Shown piece after piece: positions 14,795 to 17,753 of a stretch of DNA of 35,049 bases. A program made the position numbers and the translations under genes. The stretch lies in assembly GCA_012270795.1 (NCBI GenBank), contig JAAXHO010000042.1, forward strand, positions 1-35,049, in the 5' to 3' direction. How positions within the stretch are numbered: position 1 is the first letter of the stretch; each line of letters opens with the position of its first letter. Source of the stretch: Candidatus Poribacteria bacterium (GTDB lineage Bacteria; Poribacteria; WGA-4E; WGA-3G). The notes under the pieces were generated by a model that was not told the DNA's origin, made no database searches, and was given only the letters and a program-made list of their open reading frames with translations.

Positions 14795-15082
14795 TTATAA
14801 CAGAACTTATGCATTCCCCTTGATAAGGGGTTGGGGGGTTTAAAAGTCGTTATTTTAGTTATACCGTTTCTAATTGATAATGTCTCATTAGTTGCAGAAA
14901 TACGGTAGGAGCGACCTCCAGGTCGCGACCGGGAGGTCGCTCCTACCGAAGAGATGCCCCCAAACCAACAATAACAGTGGAATTCCTTAATGAGACATTA
15001 TTTTTTAGAATTGGTATTATTTAACCCTAAAGTACCCTTATCAAGGGGACTTTAAGAGGAAATGCGTAAGTCTTGTTATAAT
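14795..15082. repeat. triple nested palindromic element: family C around D around B
   Basis: The outermost arms (C) run from 14795 (ATAACAGAACTTATGCATT) to 15082 (inverted AATGCGTAAGTCTTGTTAT). Inside, arms of family D span 14861-15017, with a perfect 13-base TAATGTCTCATTA inverted at 14988-15000. Innermost is hairpin B, 14903-14948, with GGTAGGAGCGACC arms. No coding potential was seen. With the terminator at 15162-15202 it accounts for the 464-base gap 14761-15224. Confidence 0.87.
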
Positions 15083-15161: not shown

Positions 15162-15202
15162 CATTCAAGGCAGATAACGATAAACGTTATCTGCCTTGAA
15201 TG
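15162..15202 (-). terminator. perfect 18-bp hairpin after the three-gene unknown cassette
   Basis: CATTCAAGGCAGATAACG pairs perfectly with 15185-15202 across a 5-base loop. It starts 22 bases after the stop of the 15225-16337 gene. On the minus strand it is followed by TTTTG, a weak U-tract. It probably ends the cassette transcript and may also act on the other strand. Confidence 0.65.
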
Positions 15203-15224: not shown

Positions 15225-16337
15225 TTAGTCCGTTTCTGCCTCTAACGCCTTCAGCACCGACTCCGCAAAGTCTTTCTCAAAGTTTTGCGTGACCAACTCA
15301 CGTGCAAAGGCACGCTTTTGTTCAGCAGACGCATTCGGTAAATCAGACACAACTTTTCGGATTTTAGAAACGACCGTCTTTTGCAGCTGCATTGTCCGCA
15401 ATTTCAACATCTGCCGATCTGTCTCCATCGGAAAATACTCTTTAACTTCTTTAGGTGTCATATACTGAGATACAATCACATCAAAATACTTATCTTCTAT
15501 ATCCTTACGCCACGGTGTTAAAGTTCGCTGCACTGTAGACAAGGATTTGACTGCATCAAAAGTAGATGATGGAGAAGCAGGTTCATCAGATGAAACAGAG
15601 ATTTCATTAGGTGCATCACTTGACGGCTCCAAAACTGCAGAAGCAGATGGAGACTCCGATTCGGAAGCAGCGGCATCAGATGGAGACTCCAATTCGGGGA
15701 CAGCGGTAATCACACCTGAATCCCTCATACGCATCCAGATTTCCATTTGCTTGAGTTTCTCTAATCCTTCGCGATTACCACGCACCCAGATTTCCATTTC
15801 CCTCTCAAATGCTTCTGTTTCCAGACGACGCTGTTCCCTTGCCGCTTCTCGCTGAGGACGACCCGCTTCCCATTCCTGATTTTCTTTGAGATCAGATATA
15901 ATACCATGATAATAATCTGCCGACTCCCAATCTTGTTCTTTCTTTGCCTTATGCATCAATGCCTCAAATCCTTTTATTGACTCTTTTACTGACTCTTCAT
16001 AAGTCATTTGGGACACAGCTGCCTCTATTTTTTTTCGTTCTGTTTCCAGTTCAAGAGACAATTTTTTTGCCATGTCCTCACTGAGCCCCGCCCAAAACTC
16101 GCGGAGATCCGCCTCAAATTTTTCAATGGGAGTAGACTTTAAATCTACCATATTCTCTTTTTTCAAAACGTCCAACTTGTCAAATGATGACTGTGTTGAA
16201 AGATTAGAGGGCACAGGTTCAACAACTTCAAATTGCGAAAGAACAGATTCATTTTTTGGTTTTTTCAAAGCAAAAACAATTAATAAAACAAAGAATAACA
16301 CCAAAAGACTTGAAAAGACGTAAAGTTTGATCTTCAT
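15225..16337 (-). CDS. unrecognised membrane-anchored coiled-coil protein
   Basis: Protein of 370 residues; no family recognised. It begins MKIKLYVFSSLLVLFFVLLI, one N-terminal membrane segment with a basic start, so the rest should face the periplasm. Residues from about 70 to 205 are long charged helices rich in Glu, Lys and Arg, likely coiled coil. About 210-260 is a Ser/Ala/Pro/Glu-rich linker encoded partly by a direct repeat near 15630-15700. The last 110 residues form another charged helical region (VQRTLTPWRKDIEDKYFD onward). The start at 16337 has GAGGAGG upstream and lies 4 bases after the stop of the preceding gene; an upstream extension would overlap that gene and has no ribosome site. 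Third gene of an apparent operon. Confidence 0.72.
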   Translation of the reverse strand: MKIKLYVFSSLLVLFFVLLIVFALKKPKNESVLSQFEVVEPVPSNLSTQSSFDKLDVLKKENMVDLKSTPIEKFEADLREFWAGLSEDMAKKLSLELETERKKIEAAVSQMTYEESVKESIKGFEALMHKAKKEQDWESADYYHGIISDLKENQEWEAGRPQREAAREQRRLETEAFEREMEIWVRGNREGLEKLKQMEIWMRMRDSGVITAVPELESPSDAAASESESPSASAVLEPSSDAPNEISVSSDEPASPSSTFDAVKSLSTVQRTLTPWRKDIEDKYFDVIVSQYMTPKEVKEYFPMETDRQMLKLRTMQLQKTVVSKIRKVVSDLPNASAEQKRAFARELVTQNFEKDFAESVLKALEAETD

Positions 16338-16341
16338 CTCA

Positions 16342-16713
16342 TTATTCCTCCTCAAAAATAATGGGTGGTGGTGGATTTTCCATGATATATGCTTGGAAGT
16401 CAAAATCAGGGTATTCCCAAGCATATAATAAATCATCCATATATGCTTGCACAATAGGCTTTTGCTCCTCTAATTCTATTTTTCTTTGTTGTTTTAAGAA
16501 AAGTTCTGCATTTTCAGCAATGAGAAGAAAACCATTAGTTAATTGATCTGCTTCTATTACTTTAAGTGCCATTTCCTTAGCCTGAACCTCTAACTCAAAT
16601 AAACTCACTTGAGTGGACACAAATTCCACTTCTTTTCTTGCTTTCTTTTCTGCCTTTTTACATTCTTTGACCTTCTTTTTAGCAGTTTTTAAATCTTCCC
16701 TGTCCTGTGCCAC
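16342..16713 (-). CDS. unrecognised small coiled-coil protein
   Basis: Protein of 123 residues; no family recognised. The first 45 residues are very rich in Lys, Ala and Glu (DLKTAKKKVKECKKAEKKAR) and look like a coiled coil. The tail is acidic with a PPPP stretch near the end (ENPPPPIIFEEE). There is no signal peptide, so it is probably cytoplasmic or pairs with the membrane anchors of its neighbours. The start overlaps the end of the upstream gene by 25 bases, and its stop is 4 bases from the next start, so it is the middle gene of a compact operon. Confidence 0.62.
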   Translation of the reverse strand: MAQDREDLKTAKKKVKECKKAEKKARKEVEFVSTQVSLFELEVQAKEMALKVIEADQLTNGFLLIAENAELFLKQQRKIELEEQKPIVQAYMDDLLYAWEYPDFDFQAYIMENPPPPIIFEEE

Positions 16714-17225
16714 AATTCACTTACATAGTGTTGCCATACATTATATAAACGATCACATTCACTACATGGACGGCAATTGATACAAGGCGAATAGTGGTTG
16801 AAATAAGCTTCATAGGAATTGTATTCATAATATACACTGATTTCAATAACATTCTCCGCAGCTGTTTTATTGACTTCAGCATAATACGTTGCCCTCTCGG
16901 TATCTGATAAAGTTTTTTCTGCTGCTTTCAAGTTTGTTTTTGCTGCATCATGACTTGCTATCCAATAAATTGTTTCCAGAGATGCTTTGACCTGCATCTC
17001 ATTTAATTCATCACGGACTTCTTCAAGTGATTTTATTTTTTCTTCAAGGGTTTTTATCTGACCTGCGACTGTTTCCCAAATACCTAAACCATTTAAAAAC
17101 ATGTCCAAAGCTTCGTAAAGTTGCTTATAGGTTAAGGCGTAGGCAATGGTAGTTATACATAACAACGCAATAAGCATCATCATGAAGATGCTACGTTTGT
17201 CTATTTGTTGTCTCAATGCTGACAT
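16689..17225 (-). CDS. unrecognised secreted coiled-coil protein with four-cysteine cluster
   Basis: Protein of 178 residues; no family recognised. The N-terminus has a basic stretch and a hydrophobic segment (IFMMMLIALLCITTIAYA) that could be a cleaved signal peptide or an anchor. A helical region with a likely coiled coil follows (KTLEEKIKSLEEVRDELNEM). Near the C-terminus CINCRPCSEC places four Cys at three-residue spacing, which could bind metal or form disulfides. AAAGGAGA lies 7-8 bases before the ATG and is inside an inverted repeat (17230-17306). First gene of the cassette continuing to 15225. Confidence 0.7.
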   Translation of the reverse strand: MSALRQQIDKRSIFMMMLIALLCITTIAYALTYKQLYEALDMFLNGLGIWETVAGQIKTLEEKIKSLEEVRDELNEMQVKASLETIYWIASHDAAKTNLKAAEKTLSDTERATYYAEVNKTAAENVIEISVYYEYNSYEAYFNHYSPCINCRPCSECDRLYNVWQHYVSELWHRTGKI

Positions 17226-17229
17226 TATA

Positions 17230-17306
17230 TAATCTCCTTTTTGATTGGATCTGATCTTTTCAGATCGTTGTCTTTATGATATTGACAGATCCCAAAGGAG
17301 AAATTA
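17230..17306 (-). promoter_or_regulatory. inverted repeat enclosing the ribosome site of the unknown cassette
   Basis: TCTCCTTT in the leader (minus strand 17301-17294) is fully complementary to the ribosome site AAAGGAGA (17240-17233), and GGATCTG (17247-17253) pairs with 17286-17292 to extend the stem. GATCTG (17248-17253) can instead pair with CAGATC at 17261-17266, giving a competing small hairpin. Such alternative pairing around a ribosome site resembles a translational switch, but a MITE-like palindrome would look similar. Confidence 0.45.
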
Positions 17307-17753
17307 CAATGTGTCCTTTGAGCGCGCTGGTTTTTATAAAGCAACAGATGGGCATCTGTGTTATAATAAAAACCAGCCCTGTCATAGTCTAGTTATGGCA
17401 TGGCTACGCGCTGATCGTGGCTTCAACACTTTCGGCGCGCCCCCACTTGGGGGTGAGCGTGCCCCGGTGTTGTAAATACAAAACTTGCATTTACAACACC
17501 TTTAAGGATATTCTACCAATTTTTTATTTTTGTGCAACAATATTTTCAAATTAAATTCAAAATATTTATGGATAGGGAAAATAAGTGGGTATTCTGATGG
17601 ACAGTACCGATTCTGGCAACTTTGAAATTAATAGGAGGGAACTCCGCTTCCCGACTATGATTGAGTTAAGTCACAATTCGAAGGTCGCTCCTACAGAAAA
17701 GGTGGGCAATTATTTCTATATATCACTATATCATGCATAATTGAAAGGAACGT
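17307..17753. other. non-coding gap with several hairpins
   Basis: Inverted pairs include GCTGGTTTTTAT with ATAAAAACCAGC (about 17327-17376), AGCGCG with CGCGCT enclosing it, CAACAC with GTGTTG (about 17430-17471), and a perfect GGTGTTGTAAAT stem (17467-17501). A minus-strand promoter candidate, TTGCAC (17537-17532), 16 bases, TAGAAT (17515-17510), would make all of this a leader of about 280 bases for the cassette at 17225. A single half of the family B arm (GGTCGCTCCTAC) remains near 17682. On the plus strand a 27-codon frame at 17309-17392 has a good ribosome site but no other support. Confidence 0.4.

Follow-up and report, generated by a model that had tools for sequence, protein, structure and literature searches.

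The minus-strand genes between positions 15,225 and 17,225 of the window (the whole stretch of 35,049 nucleotides of Candidatus Poribacteria DNA analysed here) probably form a two-gene envelope operon, AB and C, whose first gene is frameshifted and which is controlled by a new cis-regulatory RNA with a switch built from a helix, P6, and an anti-Shine-Dalgarno (anti-SD) strand. The features on which this explanation rests are the following, all on the minus strand.

15162..15202, minus strand: predicted intrinsic terminator of the AB-C operon, an 18-bp stem and then TTTTG.
15225..16337, minus strand: C, 370 aa; predicted N-terminal TM helix, coiled coil, Ser/Pro/Glu linker (about residues 201-257) and conserved C-terminal helical domain (about residues 262-369).
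16342..16713, minus strand: gene B, read as the 3' part of AB, 123 aa, Lys/Glu-rich; predicted second hairpin helix, +2 nt out of frame.
16689..17225, minus strand: gene A, read as the 5' part of AB, 178 aa; predicted signal/TM segment, first hairpin helix and Cys tip CINCRPCSEC.
17233..17241, minus strand: putative Shine-Dalgarno sequence (SD) of AB, AAAAGGAGA, complementary to the anti-SD.
17293..17303, minus strand: putative P6 3' strand and anti-SD, TTTCTCCTTTG, followed by a conserved TCTGTCA.
17314..17320, minus strand: putative P6 5' strand CAAAGGA (anti-anti-SD), directly after P1, complementary group by group to the P6 3' strand.
17315..17500, minus strand: leader RNA core, from covariance-model matches, covariation and a fold z of -9.2.
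17387..17393, minus strand: P4 loop ACTAGAC, 7 nt, between the conserved arms TGCCATA and TATGACA.
17466-17500, minus strand: P0 hairpin, followed by P1, which closes the junction of P2, P3, P4 and P5.

A preliminary description of this DNA had proposed three genes for three envelope proteins, and the three minus-strand reading frames, the overlap included, are present, as are the CINCRPCSEC cluster in A and the Lys/Glu-rich composition of B. The division into three separate genes and proteins did not survive comparison with relatives. In a search of 98 related genomes, A homologues were single frames of ~280-309 codons, and at four loci (L045, L046, L048, and L052) A and B both matched one frame of a single ORF of 280-310 aa. 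At the A/B join the window reads GAATTGTGGCACAG and the intact L045 reads GAACTTGCACAG, a net +2 nt in the window, which implies an operon of two genes with the first one frameshifted: judged by the intact homologues, A and B together make up a single ~300-aa gene, AB, which in the window is frameshifted by 2 nt. A frameshifted copy in one genome can in this way yield a false 'gene cassette' reading.

The six AB copies of the window's own genome (G000; contigs C143, C39, C225, and C172, which hold L039-L042, together with C289 and the window) were compared, and five were frameshifted or truncated with their leaders intact, leaving only that on C289 whole; nearly all AB copies read in relatives are open frames. 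Because the conserved genes around the broken copies are intact, decay of the AB family in this one lineage is a likelier cause of the breaks than an error of assembly. Pairwise dN/dS values of AB and C of 0.25-0.57 show that purifying selection acts on both, or did so until recently.

The frame of C as listed starts with TTG at 16454 (15225-16454, 409 aa), but homology and a SD place the true start at the ATG at 16337, near which relatives also begin. This SD, GAGGAGG, lies just 5' of the ATG and within the last part of B, an arrangement that makes translational coupling of AB and C probable. That the genes form one transcription unit, as had been proposed, agrees with their abutting arrangement, the position of C's SD within the last part of B, the structured leader and the terminator, which is as clear as described. 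AB-C pairs are multicopy and patchily spread in Candidatus Poribacteria. The expected co-conservation with a shared Cys spacing was borne out in part: AB and C occur together in ~20 loci, while the Cys residues keep their spacing only roughly, a HxxxCxxC...C-like motif being found in ~9 of 13 AB proteins, and the supposed three genes are two. At L060, L061, L063, and L064, AB-C-like pairs lie in a conserved neighbourhood and adjoin a likely ECF sigma factor and an ABC transporter gene, as read from the starts of the sequences. Apparently identical C ORFs at L046 and L050 (G003:C49 and C50) sit on two contigs of one genome and would reflect a segmental or an assembly duplication.

Intact AB was modelled with AlphaFold2 at pLDDT 84 (7 sequences), with helices at residues 14-147 (134 residues) and 159-277 (119 residues) and a Cys-rich tip between them. 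AB is accordingly predicted to be exported and to form an alpha-helical hairpin tipped by the Cys cluster; A would supply the first arm and the tip of this hairpin and B the second arm. The model of C (pLDDT 69) begins with a hydrophobic helix at the N terminus and continues through a coiled coil and a disordered Ser/Pro/Glu linker to a C-terminal helical domain that is both the better-predicted and the conserved part. None of the three ORFs had a significant Pfam match, and searches of AB and C against Pfam, NCBIfam, PDB sequences and Foldseek returned coiled-coil background alone and no known family by profile or fold, as the preliminary description had anticipated. Weak Foldseek matches of C to NusB-like folds (E 3-9) and a match to the Gfh1 coiled coil (E 1e-4) were judged to be chance or coiled-coil composition. 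Like the RipA N-terminal domain and EnvC, to which there are weak Foldseek matches, AB would form a hairpin of long antiparallel helices that lies outside the cytoplasm; it differs from them in having a Cys-rich tip and no catalytic domain, and the matches are generic for coiled coils, none reaching E 0.001. Predictions support the coiled coils and the export or TM segments already suggested for these genes, and AB and C are best described as predicted exported or membrane-anchored coiled-coil proteins of the poribacterial cell envelope, where their most likely role would be that of a stalk or tether.

The structured leader is real. Its predicted folding energy in the window is -109 kcal/mol (z = -9.2 relative to 200 dinucleotide shuffles), and its architecture, a 64-pair structure, consists of a 5' hairpin and one helix enclosing four more hairpins; the unconstrained MFE fold lacks the full junction, and P1 and P4 rest on comparative evidence. 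The 305 bases 5' of AB match six other sites in the same genome, and all but one of these precede other AB-C operons. In a plain MAFFT alignment of 18 copies, 95% of cells were paired, against 28-47% in slid controls, and 15 pairs changed on both sides, a level reached by none of 500 shuffles. Among 58 more diverse copies, 40 of the 64 pairs change on both sides and again 0/500 shuffles reach the observed covariation; the alignment of these 58 was fitted to the model and so leans towards it, with 322 compensatory cells compared to 100 in shuffles and 91.8% paired compared to 32-44% in slid controls. One hallmark of riboswitches, a conserved 5'-leader structure with compensatory changes, is thus present, and on this comparative evidence the leader is almost certainly a conserved RNA structure class.

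Rfam 15 contained no family that matched the window at the gathering threshold, relaxed thresholds gave sub-threshold chance matches only, and six diverse members had no match in Rfam at E values up to 1. A literature search on riboswitches, RNA motifs or structured RNA in Poribacteria found nothing relevant. The leader therefore appears to belong to a new class of structured cis-regulatory RNA.

Covariance models (R1/R2) detected the RNA in 55 of the 59 genomes of the family, with up to 16 copies per genome and ~287 copies in the family when per-genome counts are summed, and, in the phylum's other families, found no copy in any of the genomes searched. An exact-pattern scan across GTDB (84,980 species) returned 47 loci, all titled Poribacteria, and none in viral contigs. 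Downstream genes were read after 87 copies: AB-C pairs follow ~22, an exported protein with a TolB-like PD40 propeller ~16, another coiled-coil family ~12, and DNA methylases and other restriction-modification (R-M) genes ~15, mainly in genus g2, the remainder being others. Since the RNA precedes so many operon types, it is a shared regulatory element and not a private part of the AB-C operon. In the PD40 operons the propeller is the second gene under the same RNA (PD40 E = 7e-21); against the TolB model it scores E = 3.5e-34, which is below TolB's curated cut-off, and whereas TolB of Tol-Pal is larger, the propellers of the regulon are partial-length relatives beside an exported protein of no assigned family. 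Genes for N6/N4 DNA methylases and type I-like R-M genes follow the RNA in genus g2 and in some genomes of g1 (for example L133:334-2092, L143, L148, L142, L104, and others).

Downstream of the core, the two strands of P6 covary by group (CAAAGG/CCTTTG, CTATAGG/CCTATAG, CTACAGG/CTGTAG, and CTACAAGG/CCTTGTAG), and the mean duplex energy was -12.8 kcal/mol for a leader's own strands against -9.7 (sd 0.31) for permuted ones. The anti-SD also matches the SD of its own group, at -10.0 for CCCTATAG and -10.1 for CTGTAG, while the anti-SDs of these two groups pair more weakly with the SDs of the main CTCCTTT group (-3.9 and -4.7), although this match rests on about three sequence groups, hence on a small number of independent events, and every CTCC tract can pair with every SD. 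In the main g2 (R-M) group the P6 3' strand is complementary to the SD plus the start codon. In predicted folds of 53 leaders, P6 formed in 83% when the SD was kept free, the SD was sequestered in 70% when P6 was blocked, and the two states were near-equal with a median energy gap of -1.1 kcal/mol. L042, L124, L156, and L135 are among the leaders without SD sequestration in the model, and no start was found in 9 of 62 leaders analysed. A second hallmark of riboswitches, mutually exclusive helices that control the SD, is therefore present in computed folds.

The mechanism proposed from these folds would place a short strand, CAAAGGA in the window, after the conserved core (P0, then P1 closing P2-P5), and this strand and the ribosome-binding site would compete for a single anti-SD strand. 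With core and P6 formed, the anti-SD would be occupied and the SD free; with P6 absent, the anti-SD would cover the SD and translation would be off. A ligand or factor may set the switch, and the 7-nt P4 loop may take part in its specificity; the regulon of coiled coils, propellers and R-M genes suggests no obvious ligand. It is likely that the leader acts in cells as such a riboswitch-like translational switch. It shares with translation-controlling riboswitches a folded 5'-leader core, a P1-closed helix junction, a downstream strand set against an anti-SD, and many copies over a regulon, but differs from them in matching nothing in Rfam, in its fixed-length hypervariable loop and in being known so far from a single family of Poribacteria. 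In one RNA subtype (L062:3448-3634 and L046:5663-5850) the element ends right at the SD, and the P2 5' strand TCTCCTAT could be the anti-SD, which would constitute an alternative expression platform.

The P4 loop stands apart from the rest of the RNA. Its length is 7 nt in 68 of 76 copies, with a purine at positions 1 and 6, G or C at the last position and the other positions nearly free, and it holds all four of the most variable columns in the whole RNA. In 13 pairs of copies that are at least 95% identical elsewhere, the loops are 41% identical, compared to 96% on the remainder of these pairs, and no more alike than in distant pairs. Metabolite aptamers do not usually carry a hypervariable loop, and a loop at saturation between near-identical copies yet common to most adjacent ones is not known from metabolite riboswitches. 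Among four close copy pairs, each within a single locus, three (L046, L062, and L155) have identical loops with cores that align at only 54-79% identity; the fourth, L251, joins two different subtypes, and the loops differ. The short variable loop could serve as a specifier as in T-box leaders, but the leader has no match to the Rfam T-box models, and reading loop positions 3-5 (the only register tried) as codons gives some stops, UAG in the window, and this interpretation was rejected.

These properties of the loop bear on what sets the switch. It is possible, if rather unlikely, that the leader is bound by a trans-acting protein or small RNA and not by a small molecule, with the P4 loop as an operon address that guards paralogues against cross-regulation. 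A loop of fixed length yet saturated sequence, and its exact sharing by three of the four close pairs despite their diverged cores, speak for this; on the other hand, no candidate factor was found, the close pairs may be mere duplicates, and the loop showed no complement or repeat beyond permutation within the element, 150 nt upstream or 500 nt downstream, nor any excess over permuted loops within 5 kb, where most sites are counted on both strands. That the loop is an operon-specific address can accordingly be put forward with low confidence, gene conversion or recent duplication being alternatives. The broader proposal, that a fixed-length and fast-diversifying loop read by a cognate trans-acting factor would let one RNA architecture run up to 16 paralogous envelope and R-M operons per genome without cross-talk, in a family of RNAs restricted to the phylum, is doubtful.

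The P4 arms are also inverted repeats around a variable 7-bp centre, and the element precedes many unrelated cassettes, R-M genes included, as might be expected of a mobile or recombination DNA structure (attC-like, or a tyrosine-recombinase core with a 7-bp overlap) whose position before genes is incidental. This is very improbable: of the 46 exact arm-N7-arm sites counted over 18 genomes, 45 fall within copies of the RNA (one such copy is weak and degraded), covariation spans P0-P5 and P6, a SD and start follow most copies on the same strand, and the pattern is absent from viral contigs. P4 as a stand-alone recombinase core site was rejected, as only 1 of 46 exact sites lacks the RNA; this site (G000:C196:304-324) probably arose by chance. 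Least probable of all is the original idea of an envelope complex of three coiled-coil proteins behind an ordinary structured leader. The predicted TM or signal segments, the coiled coils, the shared operon and the repeated, though patchy, AB-C pairing fit it, and a complex of AB with C is possible, but A and B are one gene, and the leader, which had been cited in support of a single functional unit, is far better conserved than the proteins (75-85% identity against 20-45%) and serves unrelated operons. The frameshifted AB-C operon under a switching leader RNA remains the preferred explanation.

An inverted GGAGCGACCTCC...GGTCGCGACC repeat at 14890-14961 of the window and a similar motif, GGAGCGACCTTCG, near 17677-17690 are possibly a dispersed genomic repeat.

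If correct, this explanation would establish a bacterial regulatory RNA of a new class, with ~287 copies available for comparison, in a sponge-symbiont phylum that is uncultured; the regulon of this RNA would link surface proteins with DNA restriction-modification. Regulatory RNAs of this kind hint at what the cell senses.
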